64,000 nt of DNA from Deltaproteobacteria bacterium. Its GTDB lineage: Bacteria > Desulfobacterota > GWC2-55-46. This document shows, in pieces, positions 28,282 through 44,006 of the stretch. The notes beneath the pieces are model-generated. The model saw only the letters and a program-made list of their open reading frames with translations. It searched no databases and was not told the origin of the DNA. A program made the position numbers and the translations under genes. Location of the stretch: the NCBI GenBank assembly GCA_016177845.1, contig JACOUO010000017.1, positions 62,001-126,000 on the forward strand. Reading direction: 5' to 3'. The number at the start of each line of letters is the position of its first letter. Position 1 is the stretch's first letter.

Positions 28282-28282
<1 letters not shown>

Positions 28283-29253
28283 CAGTTAAGCCTCAAATTG
28301 TTAAGATATCCTTTTACGAGCTTCTCCTGATCCTCAGGTTTAAGCTCTTTTCTCAATATTTCCTCGGCCATGCCTACAGCTATCTCGGCCACTTCTCTGC
28401 GAATCTCAAGCCTTGCCTTTTTAATCTCCTGCTCTGCGGCAAGCTTGGCCTGCTCTTTTATCTTAAGTGAAGAGGCCTGCGCCTCCTGCATGATCCTCTG
28501 CTTCTCGGCTTCGCCTTCAAGCCTGAGCTCGTTCTGTATCTCAGCTATACGGCTCTCTAATACATTTAATTTTGCGTTATATTCCGAGGCCTTGCGGTCG
28601 GCAATGTCTTTTGCTTCCTTGGCCTGGTCGATTGCCTGCTTTATATCCGCACTCCTTTTATCAAGCAGCCCTTTTATGGCTTTTGTCCATACAAGGTAAA
28701 CTCCTACAGCAAGTATCACGAAGTTGATTATCTTCCAAGTCGTACCGCTTCCGCCGTGTTCGCCGCCCTCCGGTGCTGCCCCTGCGATTGCGGGCAGAAG
28801 GGGGAGGATGAAGGCAAAGAGCATTACGATAACTTTTCTGTCAAGTATCTTCTCAGCGATATTCTGGGAGAGTGACTTTGATTCGACCTTAAGGCTTGAG
28901 AGCGCTGAGGCCTTGCTTGCCTCAAGCTCTTTTCTCATGGAGGCTATCTCGGCTGCGGCTTCTGTGCGGGCGGCCTCAAGTAAGGCCTTTTCCCTGTCAA
29001 TGCCTTCCTGCCTTATCTTGCTCCTCTCCTCATTGCCTCTTACAGCGGCTTCCTTAAGCCTCTTTTCATAAGCGGCAACACCTTCCACAACTTCCTTTTC
29101 AAGCTCGGCGGCCTTTTTGATGGCGCCGCTGATCTTCTCTTCCCTTTCCTTTAAAATGCGAAGTACCGGGTTGTAGAGGAAACGGTTTAGGATTATAAGG
29201 AGAATGAAAAAGCCTATAATCTGAAATATTAGGGTCTGGTCAATTGCTATCAT
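28282..29253 (-). CDS. atpF: Fused F1Fo ATP synthase b'-b stator subunit
   Basis: One uninterrupted 323-residue ORF holds two b-type stator subunits in tandem. Residues 1-140 are a complete b' subunit: membrane span 6-26, then a long charged helix ending EKILDRK. Residues 141-323 are a complete b subunit: a hydrophobic segment at 141-158 ending AGA-AP, a loop GGEHGGSG, a membrane span at about 174-190, then a long helix. In relatives these are separate genes. Topology closes well if 141-158 spans the membrane outwards; alternatively it is an internal signal peptide with an AGA cleavage site. An internal ATG at 28824 (Met144) has no ribosome site before it. It is first in the operon; atpB and atpE (a and c) are absent here. 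Confidence 0.88.
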
Positions 29254-30666: not shown

Positions 30667-33600
30667 CTATCCCTGTTTTTTTAGTTCCCTTCCTTTCCAG
30701 ATGGCATATATGGCAGGGAGCACCAGAAGCTCAAGGAGCCCTGAGGTGAACATGCCGCCTACCATCGGTGCCGCTATCTTTTTCATTACATCAGCCCCTG
30801 TGCCAATGCTCCACATGATTGGCAGCAAGCCCGCTATGATGGCTGTGACTGTCATGAGCTTTGGCCTTACCCTTAAAACGGTTCCGTCCATGATGGCTTC
30901 GTGGAGATCGTCCTTTGAGTTCATCCTGCCTTCGGCCTTTCTCGTATTATACGCCTGGTCAAGGTAGATGAGCATGACTATGCCCATCTCGGCATCAAGG
31001 CCCGCAAGGGCGATAAATCCTACAGCCACTCCGATACTTAAGTTGTATCCCAGGAGATACAATATCCACGCCGCGCCTATAAGGGAGAACGGGATTGCCA
31101 AAAGTATTATCAGGCACTCGGTAATGGATTTGAAGTTAAGATACAGGAGCAGGAAGATGATTGCGAGCGTAAGCGGGATAATAAGCTTAAGCTTCTCATA
31201 AGCCCTCTGCATGTATTCATACTGGCCGCTCCATGTTGCGTAGTAGCCTGTCGGGAACTTCACATTCTGCGCTACAGCCGCCTTTGCCTCATTTACATAG
31301 CTCCCCACATCCCTGCCCCTTACATCTACATATATCCATGTTGTGAGAAGGGCATTTTCTGTCCTGATTGTGGGCGGGCCCATCTTGACCCGTATATCGG
31401 CAACCTGCTGCAAAGGTATGTGCTGGCCTGTCATGGTCGGTATCAAAACACGCTCAAGCTTGACTACATCATCACGAAGCTCTCTTTTATACCTGACATT
31501 TACAGGATATCTTTCAAGGCCTTCAACCGTTGTGGTGACATTTTCTCCTCCGATTGCGGACATGATGACATCCTGAATGTCTTCTATCTTAAGCCCATAC
31601 CTTGCGGCCTCTTCCCTTTTTATGTCTATATCGAGATAGTACCCTCCGATTATCCTCTCCGCATAGGCGCTCGCCGTACCGGGTATGTTCTTTACAGCAG
31701 CCTCCACATCAAGGGCGACCTTTTCAAGCTGTTCAAGGTCCTTTCCGAATACCTTTATTCCCACAGGCGTGCGTATGCCAGTTGAGAGCATGTCTATCCT
31801 TGCCTTGATGGGCATTGTCCATGCGTTGGTGACACCGGGCATCTCAAGGGCTCTATTTAGCTCATCGATGAGCTTGTCCGTTGTCATGCCGTCGCGCCAT
31901 TGGTCGCGGGGCTTGAGATTTATTATGGTCTCAAACATCTCAAGTGGCGCCGGGTCCGTTGCGGTAAGCGCGCGCCCTGCCTTGCCGAATACGCTGTCTA
32001 CCTCAGGGAAGTTCTTGATTATCTTATCCTGCGTCTGAAGTATCTCGGCGGTTTTGGTTACTGAGATTCCGGGCAGGGTTACCGGCATGTACATGAGAGT
32101 GCCTTCATCGAGGGCAGGCATGAACTCGCTTCCAAGCCTGCTTAACGGGAAGATTGAAATAACAAGCGCGGCAACCGCGATAAGGATGGTAGCTGTTTTG
32201 AACTTTAAAACCTTTTCTATCGCAGGCCTGTAGAGCCATATCAAAAACCTTGTAATCGGGTTTTTGTGCTCAGGCATGATTTTGCCCCTGATGAAAATGC
32301 CCATTAACACAGGCACAAGCGTAATGGAGAGGAATGCAGAGGCTGCCATCGCAAAGGTCTTTGTATATGCGAGCGGTTTAAAGAGCCTGCCCTCCTGGGC
32401 CTCAAGCGTAAATATGGGCATAAAGGAAACCGTGATAATAAGGAGCGAGAAGAACAGAGGCGGGCCTACTTCCTTTGCGGCGTTCGTGATTATATCCCAA
32501 TGCCCCTTGATGCCCTCATCCCGTTCAAGGTGCTTGTGCGCGTTCTCAATCATGACGATTGCGCCGTCTATCATCGCGCCTATGGCGATAGCTATGCCGC
32601 CTAAGCTCATGATGTTGGCGTTAATGCCCATCTGGTACATTATGATAAAGGAAATTAAAATCGCTACAGGCAGCATTATTATTGCCACAAGCGCGCTTCT
32701 GAAGTGCAGGAGGAAGATTATGCAGACGAGCGAGACTACGATGGATTCCTCAACGAGCTTTTCCTTGAGAGTGTCTATTGCCCTGTGTATGAGGTCGCTT
32801 CTGTCATAGACAGGCCTTATCGTAATGCCGGGCGGCAGCCCTGCCTCAAGCTCTTTAAGTTTTGCCTTTACCCCGTCAATGACAGTCAAGGCGTTCTCGC
32901 CGAAGCGCATTACAACTATTCCGCCCACAGCCTCACCATCGCCGTTGAGTTCAGATAGGCCCCTTCTTTCATCCGGGCCAAATTCGACCCTTGCGACATC
33001 CCTTATTTTAATAGGGGTGCCTGTCCTGTCTACCCTGAGCACGATATTTTCAATGTCGTCAAGGCTCTTGATGTAGCCGAAGCCCCTGACCATGTACTCG
33101 CGCTCAGCCATCTCGATGACCCTGCCGCCGACATCCTTGTTGCTCATCTCTATTGATTTGACGATGTCGTTTATGGAGATGCCGTAGGTGAGAAGCCTGT
33201 TCGGGTCTATGTTGACCTGATACTGCTTTACAAAGCCGCCGATTGATGCGACCTCAGAGACCCCTGGAACCGTAGTAAGCTGATAACGGATATACCAGTC
33301 CTGTATTGAACGGAGCTCGGCTAAACTGTAGCCCTTTCCCTCTACCGTGTATTCGAATACCCAGCCCACGCCCGTGGCATCCGGGCCGAGCGAAGGCGTT
33401 ACGCCTCTGGGTAGTTTGCCTGCGGCAAAGTTCAGGTACTCAAGCACTCTTGAACGGGCCCAGTACATGTCGGTGCCGTCCTCGAATATCACATAGACAA
33501 AAGAGGTGCCGAAAAATGAATAGCCCCTGACGACTTTTGCCTTGGGTACGGCAAGCATCGCTGTTGTAAGCGGGTAGGTTATCTGGTCTTCAACTACCTG

Positions 33601-33774
33601 AGGGGCCTGGCCGGGATAATCCGTATATATGATTACCTGGACATCCGAGAGGTCGGGTATGGCGTCAATAGGCGTCCTGTAAATGGCGAGTATGCCCCAG
33701 CCGATGGCAAAGGCAGTGAACAGGAGAATGATAAATTTATTCTGAACTGAAAGCTCGATAATTCTCTTTAACAT
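30667..33774 (-). CDS. cusA: CusA/CzcA-family heavy-metal efflux RND pump
   Basis: The inner membrane proton-driven pump of a tripartite system. The 1035-residue protein has the HME-RND plan: twelve spans, two large periplasmic loops, the family start FAIGWGILAIYRTPIDAIPDLSDVQV in its first block, GGIAIAIGAMIDGAIVMIEN in TM4 with relay acidic residues, and ARIDMLSTGIRTPVGIK in the second loop. That Met matches one member of the CusA three-Met site; by my recollection of E. coli CusA the other two positions hold Ile and Asn here (TAEILQ, GGENV). Cu/Ag is favoured by the CusB type, but another soft metal is possible. It lies 15 bp after cusB. Confidence 0.9.
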   Translation of the reverse strand: MLKRIIELSVQNKFIILLFTAFAIGWGILAIYRTPIDAIPDLSDVQVIIYTDYPGQAPQVVEDQITYPLTTAMLAVPKAKVVRGYSFFGTSFVYVIFEDGTDMYWARSRVLEYLNFAAGKLPRGVTPSLGPDATGVGWVFEYTVEGKGYSLAELRSIQDWYIRYQLTTVPGVSEVASIGGFVKQYQVNIDPNRLLTYGISINDIVKSIEMSNKDVGGRVIEMAEREYMVRGFGYIKSLDDIENIVLRVDRTGTPIKIRDVARVEFGPDERRGLSELNGDGEAVGGIVVMRFGENALTVIDGVKAKLKELEAGLPPGITIRPVYDRSDLIHRAIDTLKEKLVEESIVVSLVCIIFLLHFRSALVAIIMLPVAILISFIIMYQMGINANIMSLGGIAIAIGAMIDGAIVMIENAHKHLERDEGIKGHWDIITNAAKEVGPPLFFSLLIITVSFMPIFTLEAQEGRLFKPLAYTKTFAMAASAFLSITLVPVLMGIFIRGKIMPEHKNPITRFLIWLYRPAIEKVLKFKTATILIAVAALVISIFPLSRLGSEFMPALDEGTLMYMPVTLPGISVTKTAEILQTQDKIIKNFPEVDSVFGKAGRALTATDPAPLEMFETIINLKPRDQWRDGMTTDKLIDELNRALEMPGVTNAWTMPIKARIDMLSTGIRTPVGIKVFGKDLEQLEKVALDVEAAVKNIPGTASAYAERIIGGYYLDIDIKREEAARYGLKIEDIQDVIMSAIGGENVTTTVEGLERYPVNVRYKRELRDDVVKLERVLIPTMTGQHIPLQQVADIRVKMGPPTIRTENALLTTWIYVDVRGRDVGSYVNEAKAAVAQNVKFPTGYYATWSGQYEYMQRAYEKLKLIIPLTLAIIFLLLYLNFKSITECLIILLAIPFSLIGAAWILYLLGYNLSIGVAVGFIALAGLDAEMGIVMLIYLDQAYNTRKAEGRMNSKDDLHEAIMDGTVLRVRPKLMTVTAIIAGLLPIMWSIGTGADVMKKIAAPMVGGMFTSGLLELLVLPAIYAIWKGRELKKQG

Positions 33775-33789: not shown

Positions 33790-35139
33790 TTAATGCTTAT
33801 GTTGTGAAGGCGGTGCGGGAGCCGGTGTTTCCTTTTTGGCTCCATCGTGCTGCATGCCGCTGATTGCGGTTTTAAGATTGCTTTCGGAATCAACGAGGAA
33901 GTTGGCTGATGTGACTACCCATTCGCCTTCGCTTACCCCTTGAAGTATCTGGAAGTAGTCCTCTCCCTTGGGGCCTGTCTTGACCTCTCTCGGTTCGAAA
34001 GTGCCGTCCCTGTTGTCTATTACCACAAGCTGCCTTGTGCCTGAATCGATAAGCGCGGAATCCGGGACTGCAATGGCATTCTTTGCGATATTCGCGGCTA
34101 TTTCGACATTAAGGTACATTCCGAGCTTGAGCCTGTGGTCTTTGTTGGGCAGAGCGAACCGTACCTTCTCTGTCCTTACCTCTGTGCCTTCCTCAGGCGC
34201 GTACCTGATCGAACCAAGGTGGCTGTAGATATGCTCGATGGTCCCTTTATAAACTTCATTTGGAGAATAGGCAGGGGTTAATGTGGCGGACTGCCCTTCC
34301 CTTATATAAGGCATCTCGTATTCGTATATCTCGCCGTAAACCCATACGCTTGAATGGTCTATTATCTTAAAGAGCGTCTCGCCGGCCTCTATCTTCTGCC
34401 CTTCGACAACCATCTTCTCGGTTACGCTGCCGTAGCCCGGCGACCTGATGGCAAGCGTCCGCGTGGCTGTGCCTGTCTCTTTAAGCCTTTTTATCTGGTC
34501 TTCGGATATGTCCCAGTATTTAAGCCTCTGTTTTGACGCCTCTACAAGGCTCTGCGCGCCTTTCCTGACCTCAGGGTAGGGGCTCATCTTTACCTGTTCA
34601 AGTCCTTTTAACGCAAGCAGGTATTCTTCCTGAGCCGATATAAGCTCAGGGCTGTATATCTCAAGGAGCTTATCTCCCCTTGAGACCATCTGGTCTGTGC
34701 GGTTAACATAGAGCCTCTCCACCCACCCCGTTACCTTGGCGTTCATTATGAAGACCTTGTCCTCGACAGGCTCGACCCTTCCTACCGTTCTTATGATTCG
34801 GCTCAGGTTTTTTCTTTCAACGGGTGCGGATTTTATCCCTATCTTCTGGATCTTTTCCGGGCTTATCTTTACAAGGCCCGGAGTTTGGTCTTTCTCTGTT
34901 TCTGGCGCATCTTCCTCATATACAGGGATATAATCCATGCCCATTTCGTCTTTCATGGGCACAGGTGAGGTGACCTTCGGGTTCATGGGGTTACGGTAGA
35001 AGAGGATATTTTTTTCCTTCTCCGCCTTGCCCGCGAATGAGACCTGCTTTTGCTCCTTATGCATCCAGACATAGACCAGCGTGCCGCCTGCGGCAAGGCC
35101 TATCAGAAGGACCAATAGTATCAACATTATTTTTTTCAT
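33790..35139 (-). CDS. cusB: CusB-type periplasmic adaptor
   Basis: This membrane-fusion protein joins the RND pump to the outer membrane channel and, in Cus systems, hands metal to the pump. The 449-residue protein has an N-terminal membrane anchor, then a heavy-metal-binding segment FYRNPMNPKVTSPVPMKDEM followed by GMDYIPVY, a Met-rich Cu/Ag-type version without Cys, then barrel-sandwich, hairpin and beta-barrel domains (GRVEPVEDKVFIMNAKVTGW, VYGEIYEYEMPYIREGQ) and a His-containing tail. The start at 35139 (MKKIMLILL) is chosen because the longer ORF to 35226 overlaps the upstream gene and lacks a membrane signal. It lies 13 bp after the TolC-family gene. Confidence 0.9.
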   Translation of the reverse strand: MKKIMLILLVLLIGLAAGGTLVYVWMHKEQKQVSFAGKAEKEKNILFYRNPMNPKVTSPVPMKDEMGMDYIPVYEEDAPETEKDQTPGLVKISPEKIQKIGIKSAPVERKNLSRIIRTVGRVEPVEDKVFIMNAKVTGWVERLYVNRTDQMVSRGDKLLEIYSPELISAQEEYLLALKGLEQVKMSPYPEVRKGAQSLVEASKQRLKYWDISEDQIKRLKETGTATRTLAIRSPGYGSVTEKMVVEGQKIEAGETLFKIIDHSSVWVYGEIYEYEMPYIREGQSATLTPAYSPNEVYKGTIEHIYSHLGSIRYAPEEGTEVRTEKVRFALPNKDHRLKLGMYLNVEIAANIAKNAIAVPDSALIDSGTRQLVVIDNRDGTFEPREVKTGPKGEDYFQILQGVSEGEWVVTSANFLVDSESNLKTAISGMQHDGAKKETPAPAPPSQHKH

Positions 35140-35152
35140 TTGATTAACTCTT

Positions 35153-36454
35153 TTATTTGTCTGAAAGCGAAGCGAGCCCGCCATCAGCTGATGTGGCCGA
35201 GATGTCAACTCCGACCGCGCGCTCAAGGGCGGCTACCCTCTTTCGATATTCAAGAAGCGTTCTCAGATAATCGATCCTTGTCTTTTTAAGCTCCCTTTCA
35301 GTATCGAGGAGCATTATGAAATCTATCCTGCCTGTCTGGTAATTCCTTACAGCCGATTCAAAGGAAAGCTCTACCTGAGGCATGAGGCTTGTCTCGTACA
35401 GAGAGCGCATCCTGTCAGAGGCGTCCACCTGCAAGGCAGCCCCTTTTACCTCAAAGGCCTTGTTGTTCTTCTCTGACGCAAGCCTTGATTTGAGGAAGAG
35501 GGCGTTTGCGGTTGCCTCCTGTGTTTGGCTGTTGTATTTACCCCTCCATATCGGGATATTTATCTGGAACATTAAATCGTAGCTGTCAAACCTGCCGTCC
35601 CTCTGTATGGGGGCCACTCCGACCATCAGGTCAGGGTAGTAGTTCTTCTTTGCAAGGTCGACAGAAAGTTCGTTGGCGTGCGCCTCTGCCTCCATCATCC
35701 TGATATCAGGGCTCTGCTTTACTGCGGACTCCACAAGCTCATCCGTATTGAAGCTGACCCTGTCTTTGGGCAGCTCTGCGGAGATACTGACCTGCGAGCC
35801 CTGAGGCCTGCTGATGAGGGATTTAAGCCTTGCCTCGGCTATCTCCTTTTCTGCGTTAAGGCTGATAAGCTCATTTCCAAGCATGGTAAGCTCTACATTT
35901 ATTTTTATTACATCCTGCTGAGAGACCTGTCCTGTTGAGTACCTCAACTGCGCTATCTCGGACATATGCGTTAGTACATCTTTTATCTCTTCGGTCTTTC
36001 TTATTGCCTCATTCAGGTAGGCATATTCGTAGTACGCCTCCTTGACCATGCCTGAGACTTCAATCTCTTTGGCAGCAAGTTCGGAGTTTGCCTGGTGCGC
36101 TTCCTTAAGGGCTATCTTCTCCCGCAGGGACAATTTGCCGGGGAAGGGGAACATCTGGCTGACAGTATACCTTGTAAGCATGGCATTGCCCGGCCCAGTA
36201 TTGAGCGGGCGAGTCCTGTCAAGGTCTTCCATCTCAACCTTTAAAGTGGGGTCGTCAAGATAACCTTCGGCCTTTGCCCTTGCCTGCCTTGCCCTGACTT
36301 TTTCCGAGAATGCCTTAAGCTCAGGGTTATTTGCCTTTGCCTCTTCGATGAGGGATTTTAGCGTCAGTGCCTCCTCTGAAAAAGCCGGAAGCGACGCAAG
36401 CGAGCTAAAGATAAGTATAAGAAGTATGGAAAATATTCCAATGATAGTCCGCAT
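35153..36454 (-). CDS. TolC-family outer membrane efflux channel (CusC-like)
   Basis: A 433-residue protein with a signal peptide (cleavage near AFS-EE, about 27) and the two repeated outer membrane efflux domains typical of TolC channels, rich in long Ala/Glu/Lys helices (EIDV-type heptads) and the NAELKAFSEKVRARQARAKA-type helix start. There is no lipobox, unlike E. coli CusC. It is encoded with cusB and cusA in the order channel-adaptor-pump, so it is the outer membrane part of this pump. It follows the small periplasmic gene by 21 bp. Confidence 0.88.
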   Translation of the reverse strand: MRTIIGIFSILLILIFSSLASLPAFSEEALTLKSLIEEAKANNPELKAFSEKVRARQARAKAEGYLDDPTLKVEMEDLDRTRPLNTGPGNAMLTRYTVSQMFPFPGKLSLREKIALKEAHQANSELAAKEIEVSGMVKEAYYEYAYLNEAIRKTEEIKDVLTHMSEIAQLRYSTGQVSQQDVIKINVELTMLGNELISLNAEKEIAEARLKSLISRPQGSQVSISAELPKDRVSFNTDELVESAVKQSPDIRMMEAEAHANELSVDLAKKNYYPDLMVGVAPIQRDGRFDSYDLMFQINIPIWRGKYNSQTQEATANALFLKSRLASEKNNKAFEVKGAALQVDASDRMRSLYETSLMPQVELSFESAVRNYQTGRIDFIMLLDTERELKKTRIDYLRTLLEYRKRVAALERAVGVDISATSADGGLASLSDK

Positions 36455-36475: not shown

Positions 36476-36871
36476 TTATTTGATATCAACCGCGAAATTG
36501 AACGCGGCCTTTCTCTTTCCTGATTGAACGGATATGTCGAAACTATATCTGCCTTTCTCAGCCATGTCCAGAGTGTTCATGTAGGAGAAAACCTCTCCCA
36601 TTTTCATTCCCATAAGCTCTTTTTGGACCTTTTTCCCTGACGGCGTCGCTATATCCGCCATTACCTTGGCGCCTTTTATCGGGTTGGTAACGCTCTTTGC
36701 CATGTCGTAGAGGTAGAGGTCGACCATGTTCTTTGAGGCATCTATTTTCAGTACTGCCTTGACCCCGTTAGAGGTCTTTATCATGCCTTCTGTCAGGCTT
36801 TGCGAACTCGCTGAGCCTGAGAAAACCGCCATCATCAAAAATATTGCCAGCGAACTTATAAGCGATTTCAT
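36476..36871 (-). CDS. Small periplasmic protein of the efflux operon, FixH/YtkA-like
   Basis: A 131-residue exported protein (signal peptide to about SGSASS, residue 23). The mature domain reads as an all-beta sandwich (VKAVLKIDASKNMVDLYLYD, KGRYSFDISVQSGKRKAAFN) in the style of YtkA/FixH-like domains, with several Met (MKMGEVFSYMNTLDM). It is the first gene of the channel-adaptor-pump unit and directly follows the operator at 36884, so it is regulated with the pump. A role as metal carrier or as a sensor of the periplasm is a guess. Confidence 0.62.
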   Translation of the reverse strand: MKSLISSLAIFLMMAVFSGSASSQSLTEGMIKTSNGVKAVLKIDASKNMVDLYLYDMAKSVTNPIKGAKVMADIATPSGKKVQKELMGMKMGEVFSYMNTLDMAEKGRYSFDISVQSGKRKAAFNFAVDIK

Positions 36872-36883
36872 TGTATTTCTCCT

Positions 36884-36900
36884 TTCTACTATTCGTAGAA
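36884..36900. promoter_or_regulatory. Perfect dyad before the efflux operon, candidate BlaI-type operator
   Basis: TTCTAC-TATTC-GTAGAA is a perfect 6-5-6 inverted repeat lying 13 bp before the first gene of the efflux operon (36871). It has the same 6-5-6 layout as the site in the regulator promoter (TTCGAC-ACTAT-GTAGAA), differing by one arm base. Confidence 0.68.
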
Positions 36901-36918: not shown

Positions 36919-37836
36919 TTAATGTTTATGGGAGGTTTTGCAGTGCGTCCTGCAATCATCCCCGAGTTTGTTTATATGGGTTGAGCAATGCTCGGTTGAG
37001 CAGTCATTGGCCAATGAAGCGGCTGAGTGCAGAGGCAGTAAGATTGAAGTCATCAGAAGCCCGGCAATGAAAAGGCTGATTGTAATTGCCCTTAAGGCAG
37101 GCCGCTTGAATTTAAGCTCCCTTCCTTCGATAATCCTCCTGACCCTGCCTGATATGCTTCCCCCTTCGATATTGCCTGTGAATGAGGCAGGCGCAAACGA
37201 TGCCCTGTTAAAAGAGGCTACTTTTACAAGCGCCTCTGCAAGGCTTACAGGCTCGCTGATGGCCGCGATTGCGGCGTCATCGGCCTCGCATTCCTTTTTA
37301 AGGAGCATGACCCCTACAAAGTGGCTGATAAGGGGCAGGTAAAAGAACGCGTCTCTCAGGAAATTAAAGAGAAAGAACCGTAAAGGGTCGTAATTCCTCT
37401 TATGATGAAGCTCGTGGGCAAAGACTGAAAGCAGCTCGCTTCTTTCAAGGCTCTTTATAAGCCCTGTTGAAATATAAATTCTGGGCTTGATGAGGCCGTG
37501 AGTAAATGCAGCCTTGCTTAAGTCGTCTTTTATAAGGACTACTGATGAGCCCTTGTCCATAAGGGGCATTGCCTTGATGATGCCGTGAGCCTTAAGCAGG
37601 CCCTTGATGTTTTTAAACGCCGCATAAAGAAGCCCTCCGGCAAGGGCGAAAATGCCGAGCCATACCAGTACGACCTTTAATATCGCGGTATATTCAAGGC
37701 ACCTTACAAAAAGGCTCTGGCATAGGTTCATTACGCCGAAGGTGAGGTTGAAAAGCCCGGGCAGACCATAGGCAGCCCAGCCTAAAGCGGCTGAGGCAAG
37801 GGCGATTATGGTCAGGACAGGCACAAGGACAGGCAT
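36919..37836 (-). CDS. M56 (BlaR1-like) membrane metalloprotease with a Cys/His-rich tail
   Basis: A 305-residue protein of the BlaR1/MecR1 protease family. It has membrane spans near residues 5-25, 52-74, 155-178 and 246-268. The zinc protease site is HELHH at 141-145 with Glu184 in ECEADDAAI as likely third ligand. In BlaR1 a large penicillin-binding sensor domain follows the last span; here only a 35-residue tail follows, with Cys279, His283, Cys284, His287, Cys295, His298, Cys299, His303 and His305. That tail should face the periplasm and looks like a metal-binding site. The gene starts on the last base of the BlaI gene. Inferred role: metal sensing and cleavage of the repressor. Confidence 0.85.
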   Translation of the reverse strand: MPVLVPVLTIIALASAALGWAAYGLPGLFNLTFGVMNLCQSLFVRCLEYTAILKVVLVWLGIFALAGGLLYAAFKNIKGLLKAHGIIKAMPLMDKGSSVVLIKDDLSKAAFTHGLIKPRIYISTGLIKSLERSELLSVFAHELHHKRNYDPLRFFLFNFLRDAFFYLPLISHFVGVMLLKKECEADDAAIAAISEPVSLAEALVKVASFNRASFAPASFTGNIEGGSISGRVRRIIEGRELKFKRPALRAITISLFIAGLLMTSILLPLHSAASLANDCSTEHCSTHINKLGDDCRTHCKTSHKH

Positions 37837-38267
37837 TATCCCCTCTTTCTTTCAATCTCTTTCTTTTTTGATTCTATCAGGGCGGTGAGCTTGTCAAGCT
37901 CCATGGGGTCGTTGTCAGCAAGCGCGTCAACAAAAGAGGCGCACGCCCCGCTTGCGGATATCTCAAAAATGCCTTTGAGTACCTCTTGAGAGACCTCTCT
38001 GGCAAATTCGTCTTTAGTATAGGCGGGCCTGAAAAGATAGACGCTCTCGCCTTTGACCTTCCTGACAATCCCTTTTTTGGCAAGCCTTTCAAGGACAGTA
38101 AGGACGGTTGTCAGGGCAATCTCCCTGTTCCTTTTTATCTCGGCAAATATCTCCTTGCCGCTGGCCTCCTGCTTAAGCCACAGCGCCTCAAGAATGTCCT
38201 GCTCAAGATGCCCGAGCACTTTGCCGTATCCGTCAGTAAATTTGATTACTTTATCCGTATTATCCAC
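37836..38267 (-). CDS. BlaI/MecI/CopY-family transcriptional repressor
   Basis: A winged-helix repressor: LGHLEQDILEALWLKQEASG then TTVLTVLERLAKKGIV with the wing KGESVYLFRPAY, and a C-terminal dimer helix. The C-terminal Cys cluster that senses copper in CopY is absent (a single Cys), so sensing should come from the M56 partner. I start at the GTG at 38267, which has GGAGG five bases before it; an ATG at 38279 is in frame but would leave a leader of only about 2 nt after the promoter at 38288-38316. The operator sits in that promoter, so it probably represses itself. Confidence 0.87.
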   Translation of the reverse strand: MDNTDKVIKFTDGYGKVLGHLEQDILEALWLKQEASGKEIFAEIKRNREIALTTVLTVLERLAKKGIVRKVKGESVYLFRPAYTKDEFAREVSQEVLKGIFEISASGACASFVDALADNDPMELDKLTALIESKKKEIERKRG

Positions 38268-38287
38268 AAAAGCCTCCATCTAACCCT

Positions 38288-38316
38288 ATAATATTCGACA
38301 CTATGTAGAATGTCAA
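38288..38316 (-). promoter_or_regulatory. Sigma-70 promoter of the repressor-protease operon
   Basis: On the minus strand TTGACA (38311-38316) and TATTAT (38288-38293) are separated by exactly 17 bp. Start would be near 38281, 14 nt before the GTG start of the repressor gene. Confidence 0.82.
38294..38310. promoter_or_regulatory. Operator filling the spacer of the repressor promoter
   Basis: TTCGAC-ACTAT-GTAGAA occupies the whole 17-bp spacer between the -35 and -10 boxes, within a longer imperfect dyad (ATTC-n-ACA-N3-TGT-n-GAAT, 38293-38311). A protein bound here would exclude RNA polymerase. ACA-N3-TGT is close to, but one base longer than, the ACA-N2-TGT core of known BlaI and CopY operators. 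Confidence 0.7.
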
Positions 38317-40099: not shown

Positions 40100-40987
40100 A
40101 TGGTTAAGGTGGTAGGAGTCAGGTTCAAAAAGGCCTGTAAGGTTTATGATTTCGATAGCAACAATCTTGAATTGAGCCCCGGGGATTCAGTAATAGTCGA
40201 GGTGGAGAGAGGGCTTGGGCTTGGGATAGTAGCATACATCCCCAAAGAGGTGGACCCGGCGACGCTTACAAGGCCTCTTAAAAAAGTAGTGCGCAAGGCG
40301 GATCCGGTTGACCTTGAGAGGAACGGCTTTAATACCGAAAGGGAGAACGAGGCGTTCAGGATATGCAAGGATAAGATAGCGCATTACCATCTCCCCATGA
40401 AGCTTATAAGGGTCGAGTACCTTTTCGACTCAAGCAAGGCGATATTTTATTTCACATCAGAGACAAGGGTTGACTTCAGGGAACTGGTCAAAGACCTTGC
40501 GGCCGGGTTCCATACAAGGATAGAGATGCGTCAGATAGGCGTAAGGGATGAGGCAAAGATGATAGGCGGGCTCGGACCGTGCGGCAGGGAGCTTTGCTGC
40601 GCCGGTTTCCTCTCGGATTTTGAGCCTGTCACAATAAAGATGGCAAAAGAGCAGAACCTTGCGTTAAACCCTGTAAAGATCTCCGGCATCTGCGGAAGGC
40701 TCATGTGCTGCTTAAGCTATGAGCACGACATGTATCAGGGAGAGAAGCACGAGAGGAAGGACAGGGGAGATAAGGGCGACAGGGGCGGCGATAAAGATAA
40801 GGTTGAAAAGAGCAATAATAAGCACGAAGGCGGGTGCGGCGGAGGCTGCGGCGGGGGCGGCAAGCACGGAGGCGGCCACCACCACGGACATCATTCGCAC
40901 GCAAGGAATAAGGGCCAGAATAGCAGCAGTAAGGATACTAACAATACTAATCAGGACAAGGAGAGCGCCCCGCAGGAAGGGGCTTAA
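40100..40987 (+). CDS. PSP1-domain protein, RicT/YaaT-like, with a Cys/His-rich tail
   Basis: The first 210 residues are a PSP1 domain as in Bacillus RicT (YaaT), which with RicA and RicF binds Fe-S clusters and promotes RNA maturation by RNase Y. The conserved Cys blocks GPCGRELCC and GICGRLMCC are both present. After residue 215 comes a charged linker and then a 54-residue tail (242-295) with Cys246, Cys250, eight His among many Gly (256-267), and a polar end. The tail is unusual and looks like a metal store or nickel/zinc-binding run. The gene lies between holB and metG, the same neighbourhood as in many bacteria (tmk-holB-yaaT-metG-tatD). Confidence 0.88.
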   Translation: MVKVVGVRFKKACKVYDFDSNNLELSPGDSVIVEVERGLGLGIVAYIPKEVDPATLTRPLKKVVRKADPVDLERNGFNTERENEAFRICKDKIAHYHLPMKLIRVEYLFDSSKAIFYFTSETRVDFRELVKDLAAGFHTRIEMRQIGVRDEAKMIGGLGPCGRELCCAGFLSDFEPVTIKMAKEQNLALNPVKISGICGRLMCCLSYEHDMYQGEKHERKDRGDKGDRGGDKDKVEKSNNKHEGGCGGGCGGGGKHGGGHHHGHHSHARNKGQNSSSKDTNNTNQDKESAPQEGA

Positions 40988-42537: not shown

Positions 42538-42575
42538 CCGTGCGCGTTTTAACGCAGGCGCGGTTTTTTTATTTT
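42538..42575 (+). terminator. Probable terminator after metG
   Basis: An imperfect GC-rich stem (CCGTGC / GCGCGG, with a possible inner GCG/CGC stem around TTTTAA) is followed by seven T at 42564-42570. It lies between metG and the TatD gene and may only reduce read-through. Confidence 0.6.
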
Positions 42576-42593
42576 GACCGGAGTTTGGCAGCA

Positions 42594-44006
42594 ATGGAAA
42601 AGACATATTTCATGGATACTCACGCCCACCTTGACGACCCGAGGTTTGACGGTGACAGGGCTGAGGTAATCCGCAGGGCAAAAGAAGCAGGGCTTAAGAA
42701 TATTATTTCAGTGGGATGCTGGAATATGGAAAAAGGTTTCAAGCCCCTTCTGGAAGTGCTCTCTTATTATGATTTCATATACGCCGGCCTTGGGGTGCAT
42801 CCGCATGACGCGAAAGATGTTGAGGATGATAAGCCCTTTGAAGAGATAAAAAAACTTGCGCTGCAGTCAACTGATGTGGCCCGCTCAAGGGTAGTCGCAA
42901 TCGGCGAGACAGGGCTTGACTACTATTATGACAAGTCACCAAGAGAGACGCAGAAAGAGATTTTCAGAAAGCATATAAGGCTTGCAAGGGAGCTTACTCT
43001 TCCCCTCATCATCCATACAAGGGATGCCGAAGAAGATACCATTGAGGTGCTTAAATCCGAGGGAGTTGGGGAGGCCGGGGGCGTATTTCACTGCTTTTCA
43101 GGCTCAATGAGGCTTGCCGAAGAGGCATTGAAGCTCGGTTTCTATATCTCATTTAGCGGCGTTATAACATTCCCCAACGCAAAGGAACTCAGGGAAGTCG
43201 TAAAGCAAATGCCTGAGGATAAGATACTCATTGAGACAGACTGCCCGTATCTTGCGCCCGTACCTGAAAGGGGCAAGAGGAACGAGCCTGCATTTGTCAT
43301 AAATACCGCAAAAGAAATAGCCAGGCTCAGAGGGCTTACGCTTGACGACATAGGCAGGATTACCACAAGGAACTCTCAGGAGCTTTTTGGCATTAATAAA
43401 GCCCCTGAAAAGGCGCAGATAGCCTACGCAATAAGGAACTCGCTTTACTTGAACCTTACGAACAGGTGCTCGAATTACTGCACATTCTGCGCTAAATTCG
43501 AGTCATATACCGTCAAAGGCCATTACCTTAAACTGAGTGAAGAACCTACTTTCGAGCAGGTGCTTGACGCTATCGGGCCTGAGCCGACCAAGTATGACGA
43601 GATAGTATTCTGCGGTTTCGGCGAGCCTCTCATAAGGCTTGACCTCGTTAAAAAAGTAGGCATGCACCTTAAGAGGATGGGATGCAAAATAAGGATAGAT
43701 ACTGACGGGCTTGCCAACCTTGTGCATGGAAGGAATGTGCTGCCTGAACTGGCATTCGCAGATACCATTTCAGTAAGCCTCAACGCTCCTGATTCAGAGA
43801 CATACCAGAAGCTTATAAAAACCCCGTTCGGCGACAGGTCATATCCTGCGATACTCTACTTCCTCAGGGAAGCAAAGAAGCATATCCAAAAGGTAATGGC
43901 AAGCGTGGTGGCTGTGCCGGGCCTTGACATAGAGGCGTGCCGCAAGGTGGCCGAGGATGACATCGGGGTTGTTTTCAGGGTAAGGGAATATAATAAAGTC
44001 GGCTGA
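42594..44006 (+). CDS. TatD-family hydrolase fused to a radical SAM domain
   Basis: Residues 1-260 are a TatD metal-dependent nuclease: DTHAHLDD with two His ligands, IGETGLDYYYD, HTRDAEED, FHCFSGS and ETDCPYLAP. After a short linker, residues 280-470 form a radical SAM domain with CSNYCTFC (CX3CX2C), an FCGFGEPLIR glycine motif and later SAM-binding blocks. It matches the TatD-linked radical SAM family known as neighbours or fusions in Deltaproteobacteria and relatives. The start at 42594 (MEKTYFMDTHAHL) has GGAG upstream; the longer ORF runs through the terminator. The radical SAM substrate is unknown. It lies in the usual metG-tatD order. Confidence 0.92.
   Translation: MEKTYFMDTHAHLDDPRFDGDRAEVIRRAKEAGLKNIISVGCWNMEKGFKPLLEVLSYYDFIYAGLGVHPHDAKDVEDDKPFEEIKKLALQSTDVARSRVVAIGETGLDYYYDKSPRETQKEIFRKHIRLARELTLPLIIHTRDAEEDTIEVLKSEGVGEAGGVFHCFSGSMRLAEEALKLGFYISFSGVITFPNAKELREVVKQMPEDKILIETDCPYLAPVPERGKRNEPAFVINTAKEIARLRGLTLDDIGRITTRNSQELFGINKAPEKAQIAYAIRNSLYLNLTNRCSNYCTFCAKFESYTVKGHYLKLSEEPTFEQVLDAIGPEPTKYDEIVFCGFGEPLIRLDLVKKVGMHLKRMGCKIRIDTDGLANLVHGRNVLPELAFADTISVSLNAPDSETYQKLIKTPFGDRSYPAILYFLREAKKHIQKVMASVVAVPGLDIEACRKVAEDDIGVVFRVREYNKVG

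Follow-up and report, generated by a model that had tools for sequence, protein, structure and literature searches.

The 64-kb stretch of DNA analysed here (the window), which comes from a little-studied "Deltaproteobacteria" lineage, contains, at positions 36919–38279, a genuine pair of genes for a BlaI repressor and an M56 membrane protease. Both are read from the minus strand: a 147-residue BlaI/MecI-family repressor (37836–38279; Pfam PF03965, 79.4 bits, above cut-off, with PDB matches to BlaI/MecI) and a 305-residue BlaR1-like M56 membrane zinc protease (36919–37836; PF05569, 38.8 bits, above cut-off), the blaI stop overlapping the M56 start by one base. A first-pass annotation had called this a BlaR1/BlaI-like pair, which both Pfam assignments bear out, and no second BlaI-M56 pair scores above the Pfam cut-offs anywhere in the 3.0-Mb genome. 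On the same strand follow genes for a small secreted protein (36476–36871; 131 residues, with the Met motif LMGMKMG and no family match), a CusC-like outer-membrane efflux protein (35153–36454; PF02321, 137.6 bits), a CusB-like periplasmic adaptor (33790–35226, the true start probably near 35139; PF16576, 211.3 bits) and a CusA-type RND metal exporter (30667–33774; TIGR00914 above cut-off, with similarity to CusA). The best NCBIfam model of the adaptor is PRK09783 CusB, with a score under its cut-off. The identity of the RND protein is clear by a wide margin, as it scores 1257 bits against E. coli CusA versus 581 bits against the CzcA-like ZneA, in keeping with the earlier description of a Cus-type efflux operon beside the pair. 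It also retains the three CusA substrate methionines (the Met of YMP, PLEM and RIDM), which we take to be the residues carrying Cu(I)/Ag(I) in CusA. The small secreted protein is conserved at many orthologous loci, and is possibly a CusF-like copper carrier.

When 395 genomes of the phylum were searched, full-length M56 orthologs (33–46% identity) turned up in the same class only; a scan of GTDB genomes added further orthologs from Deltaproteobacteria-named or unclassified bacterial MAGs, with a few distant matches besides. The GTDB scan used the closer alignment, as a scan with the single protein matched nothing and the broad alignment was too divergent; in plasmid records the only M56 matches were distant ones from Bacillaceae. 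The resulting set comprises 40 sequences, the window M56 and 39 non-redundant orthologs; the start of the L069 ortholog and some TTG/GTG starts are uncertain, which does not affect the argument. Efflux genes adjoin the pair in 34 of the 39 orthologous loci, and four of the remaining five end at contig edges, so that the gene order BlaI-M56-(small protein)-OMF-MFP-RND, and with it the linkage to metal efflux genes on which the initial proposal depended, is found in 34 of the 35 loci with sufficient flanks. The sole true exception is L035, in which the M56 gene lies far from cus and from any blaI; an adjacent blaI is also absent from L073. The L035 genome (also represented by L151) does carry a blaI at another position, and the promoter region of that gene contains two exact operators in tandem, separated by 28 bp. 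Outside the ortholog group, six BlaI-M56 pairs from the phylum (L020–L024, L028) have no Cys/His-rich tail of the kind described below.

Three further genes of the window were recorded in passing. A PSP1/YaaT-like protein (40100–40987) bears a Cys/Gly/His-rich C-terminal tail, GGCGGGCGGGGKHGGGHHHGHH, of which L073 has a shorter version; ATP synthase b-type subunits are seemingly fused in one 323-residue frame (28282–29253); and a TatD-type nuclease is fused to a radical-SAM-like domain in a 488-residue frame (42540–44006), the last two being of the same length in relatives.

The M56 profile matches the BlaR1 structure 8exp (E 2.4e-9), the match stopping at BlaR1 residue 328, ahead of the sensor. 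An AlphaFold2 model (41 sequences, mean pLDDT 86.6) superposes on BlaR1 with a Z of 11.4 (4.5 Å over 177 residues), above unrelated matches, with model residue 30 onwards aligning with BlaR1 residue 87 onwards. The HELHH zinc motif reported previously was found at residues 141–145 (37402–37416, minus strand), invariant in the 40 sequences, as are H141, E142, H145, D150, E182 and D186 individually. The spacing of H141/H145/D150/E182/D186 is identical to that of H201/H205/D210/E242/D246, the catalytic residues of BlaR1 (PMC9834060). By hydropathy, three membrane segments stand out clearly (about residues 1–28, 42–75 and 246–275), rather than the four spans assigned earlier. The protein ends 35 residues past the last of these, and its C-terminus contains no penicillin-binding sensor domain.

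In place of the BlaR1 sensor domain is an extracytoplasmic Cys/His tail (residues 273–305; 36922–37020, minus strand), identified by ortholog conservation. Its composition is as first described, with four Cys (279, 284, 295 and 299) and five His (283, 287, 298, 303 and 305) in some 35 residues. On assumed background frequencies, the chance of four Cys in 27 tail residues is about 3e-4, and that of five His likewise about 3e-4; conservation among orthologs is a stronger test than these composition statistics. Here the tail is strongly kept, as the initial proposal required, with C279 and C299 present in 40/40 sequences and C284 and C295 in 39/40, while H287 and H298 are conserved at 0.90 and 0.93, respectively. 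The two similar units proposed for the tail are literally present as CX3HCX2H and CX2HCX3H, but the first relies on H283, conserved at only 0.47, and we rejected the model of equal units for that reason. The conserved core is instead C-x4-C-x2-H...C-x2-H-C, plus a loosely kept His-rich end; the strict form occurs in 31 of the 39 orthologs, most others having four or five Cys with changed spacing, and a few carry altered tails (L045, L048/L078, L049/L050, L071 and L076). AlphaFold2 predicts the tail as a helical hairpin (helices 281–291 and 294–302) with medium confidence (pLDDT about 64–76 for residues 271–300), and a fold search returned no match for the tail itself, the matches obtained barely covering it.

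Two further conserved cysteines, overlooked in the first-pass annotation, lie in an extracellular loop between the first two spans (residues 28–49; 37690–37755, minus strand), which by conservation and model alignment corresponds to the end of the BlaR1 loop EL1. C39 and C46 are conserved at 0.93 and 0.97 among the 40 sequences, and with the four tail residues they make up exactly six conserved Cys columns, all in the loop and tail and none in the protease domain. As the tail comes after the last span, loop and tail should both lie on the periplasmic side, and a shared loop-tail metal site is plausible. In BlaR1, EL1 occupies the active site of the sensor, and its displacement by the beta-lactam is the proposed start of signalling (PMC9834060).

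The partner repressor has a single Cys, C113, conserved at 50%, in agreement with the earlier statement that it lacks the Cys cluster of CopY; its score against the CopY model TIGR02698 is 40.9 bits, below the cut-off of 121.95. S. aureus BlaI is cut at N101|F102, and the P1' Phe of BlaI is almost invariant (PMC9834060). In the alignment to PDB matches, F116 of the window BlaI (37932–37934, minus strand) aligns without gaps to MecI F102 as the predicted P1' residue, within a strongly conserved A-S-F-V-D block in which the Phe is found in 33 of 38 sequences. We predict from this that BlaI would be cleaved at S115|F116.

Alignment of upstream regions brought out a predicted operator, the 17-bp palindrome TTCTAC-N5-GTAGAA, with two matches in the 64-kb window versus 0.11 expected. 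Operator 1 (38294–38310, minus strand; TTCTACATAGTGTCGAA, one mismatch) lies in the blaI promoter and takes up the whole of its 17-bp spacer; the TTGACA (38316–38311) and TATTAT (38293–38288) elements of this promoter, on the minus strand, give an 11/12 promoter match; this arrangement, with at most one mismatch, recurs in 32 of the 39 loci. Operator 2 (36884–36900, minus strand; TTCTACGAATAGTAGAA, exact) sits between the M56 stop and the gene for the small secreted protein, the first of the efflux operon, and its position is kept in 33 of 39 loci, mostly 17–27 bp past the M56 stop. Downstream of operator 2 there is a ribosome-binding site and no -10 box, so operator 2 may act as a roadblock that stops basal transcription of blaI-M56 from running on into the efflux genes.

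Beyond the pair's own locus, the operator leads to copper genes. The 3.0-Mb genome contains four exact sites, each ahead of copper-handling genes: besides the site at cus, one precedes a copper P-type ATPase (944 residues, including HMA and YHS domains; 629.8 bits to the copper-translocating model TIGR01511, whose cut-off is 397) and two precede paralogous small TRASH-like proteins. These paralogs (L099:5603–5989 and L101:5705–6094; CMVND...GCC.GC) are unnamed by NCBIfam. In other genera the operator again precedes copper ATPases (L134, L137, L144), TRASH-like proteins (L134, L141, L142, L146–L148, L152), the small cus-operon protein (L133) and blaI itself (L140, L151), while at three sites (L138, L145, L149) an evident copper gene is absent. 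Among 59 genomes of the class, the exact operator occurs in 40 of the 44 with the M56 protein versus 3 of the 15 without it (Fisher P 6e-7), an association that partly reflects sites at the pair's own locus; the reversed control pattern has no association with M56 presence. A chance origin of the operators was rejected from this association and from the count in the window. With one mismatch allowed, the pattern is not over-represented genome-wide and the control count is higher, so the argument rests on the exact sites and their location; the two one-mismatch sites in L102 and L103 lie inside genes and were taken as chance. The location of operators at copper genes elsewhere in the genome is independent support for a copper switch, and together with the CusA type of the pump it points to Cu(I)/Ag(I) as the sensed metal.

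We consider it probable, from the sequence comparisons assembled here, that the two proteins make up a transmembrane switch for Cu(I)/Ag(I) that follows the BlaR1/BlaI plan. Its components differ in strength: the assignment of repressor, operators and copper regulon is very likely to be right, proteolysis of BlaI by the M56 protein, by homology to BlaR1, is likely, and a sensor role for the thiols of tail and loop, to which the exclusive Cys conservation points, is reasonably probable. At rest, a BlaI dimer would occupy TTCTAC-N5-GTAGAA at its own promoter and at the cus genes, the CopA-type ATPase and the two TRASH-like genes. A rise in periplasmic copper would lead to its binding by the thiolates of C279, C284, C295 and C299, with H287 and H298 assisting and C39 and C46 of the adjacent loop probably sharing in copper binding with the tail. 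Binding would lock or shift the loop and last span and so switch on the cytoplasmic zinc protease, which would cut BlaI near S115|F116, relieving repression and inducing copper export; export would then lower periplasmic copper, and the switch would reset.

The alternatives differ mainly in what is sensed and where. PetP/PetR of Synechocystis sp. PCC 6803, a copper-responsive BlaR-family protease with a BlaI/CopY-family repressor (PMC7896320, PMC10141476, PMC12292863), is a precedent for the copper switch, but copper sensing by PetP may do without a tail of this kind, in which case the sensor here, too, need not be the tail. A copper switch of the PetP kind, with sensing by another route (for example protease domain, repressor or copper chaperone) and the tail as an accessory for structure or metal scavenging, gains from the fact that the mode of copper action on PetP has not been worked out; the medium confidence of the tail in the fold model likewise counts for it and against a sensor tail. 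Against it, the sole conserved Cys of the M56 protein are in the loop and tail, BlaI is without conserved Cys, and distant pairs of Patescibacteria in copper settings also keep a loop Cys and a three-Cys tail, and we regard it as unlikely. The tail could also be disulfide-bonded: the C-x4-C-x10-C-x3-C spacing could give two disulfides in the predicted helical hairpin, in a compartment that is extracytoplasmic, and oxidation, or copper-driven oxidation, would then be the signal in place of stable metal binding. The conserved H287 and H298 and the His-rich end suit metal binding better than such a thiol-redox sensor, and the regulon is one of copper export, not of oxidant repair; we find this reading somewhat less credible again than sensing elsewhere.

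Cys/His sites often bind zinc, and zinc or another divalent metal might be the ligand of the tail. We hold this to be improbable, as the RND protein is of the CusA type, with its Met residues retained, and not of the Czc type, and a copper-type P-ATPase lies under the same operator. M56/BlaI pairs are, finally, widespread, and many have nothing to do with metals, such as those of L020–L024 without Cys/His tails; a generic envelope- or antibiotic-sensing pair beside cus by chance is nonetheless disfavoured already by the linkage in 34 of 35 loci and by the operators at cus and other copper genes, and with a PBP-like sensor also absent its probability is very slight. Three observations do weigh against the copper switch as proposed, namely the altered tails of a few orthologs, the separation of the L035 M56 gene from cus and blaI, and the N5 spacing of the operator where the cop box has N4.

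Pairs of related design in other phyla are leads that have been less fully examined. In Aminicenantes (L081), an independent phylum that adds support to the copper switch, the gene order is different, cusCBA being followed by blaI-M56; the M56 tail has four Cys, and the operator is embedded in the cusC promoter as well as in that of blaI. Six pairs from Patescibacteria (L084, L085, L087–L090) have a three-Cys tail, with a loop Cys in the motif YYCQ in L085, L087, L088 and L090. TACTAC-N5-GTAGTA sites precede blaI or follow the M56 gene in these pairs; their neighbours include P-type ATPases, a multicopper oxidase and cupredoxin-like genes. Separately, the M56 proteins of L091 (Pseudohongiella) and L022 lack a Cys tail but are rich in Cys and His in the first extracellular loop (HCHGDCAPH; HCHGHGDAPVGFCLAH), and are possibly another metal-loop variant. 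A broader proposal, to which we give slightly less than an even chance, is that the six loop and tail Cys together make a single composite site for Cu(I)/Ag(I) in place of the BlaR1 contact between loop and sensor, and that such a metal-thiolate cap is a general design for the control of copper genes across several phyla, including Aminicenantes, Poribacteria and Patescibacteria.

How the signal passes from the outside to the protease inside is still debated for BlaR1-type proteins, whose natural sensor domain is large. The sensor of the M56 protein appears shrunk to roughly 20 residues that include four Cys, and the loop it faces supplies another two; a sensor so small would make the signalling step accessible through single Cys changes and metal titration. 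The copper switch would, if correct, mean that Cus pumps can also be controlled through a protease and a repressor, besides the ways already known, and it would place PetP/PetR within a wider group. According to a survey of copper signalling published in 2023 (PMC10141476), what BlaR does in heterotrophic marine bacteria is still to be elucidated.

The first-pass annotation knew of no described metal-sensing BlaR, which was mistaken, since PetP of Synechocystis is copper-responsive (PMC7896320, PMC10141476). PetP/PetR was the only metal-sensing BlaR that our search of the open-access literature for such a protein beside efflux genes yielded, and neither a BlaR-type protease with a Cys/His cap nor one controlling Cus efflux was found described there; PMC11253441 was set aside as a precedent, as blaR1 appears there only within a list of resistance genes. 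A copper-responsive BlaR/BlaI system is thus already known, while the Cys/His-capped, Cus-controlling form is undescribed in the open-access literature searched. Compared by description rather than by sequence, PetP/PetR likewise places a BlaI-type repressor under a BlaR1-type membrane protease in a copper-linked role, but it controls the exchange of plastocyanin and cytochrome c6 (petE, petJ), whereas the operators here are at cus, copper ATPase and TRASH-like genes. With BlaR1/BlaI and MecR1/MecI of Staphylococcus aureus the pair shares the HEXXH...E and Asp spacing, the extracellular loop ahead of the protease and a repressor partner with a Phe at the predicted P1' position; it differs in having a 35-residue Cys/His tail where BlaR1 and MecR1 have a beta-lactam sensor of about 250 residues, in missing the first BlaR1 span, and in its copper-export regulon and operator spacing. 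CopY of Enterococcus and Streptococcus belongs to the same repressor superfamily and also governs a copper-export regulon, but detects copper directly, by means of a C-terminal Cys motif that the window BlaI does not have, and the cop box, TACANNTGTA, is one base narrower than the TAC-N5-GTA found here. The Cus pump of E. coli is induced by the CusRS two-component system, which senses periplasmic copper and silver and controls cusCFBA; the task given there to a histidine kinase and response regulator would here fall to a protease and a repressor.
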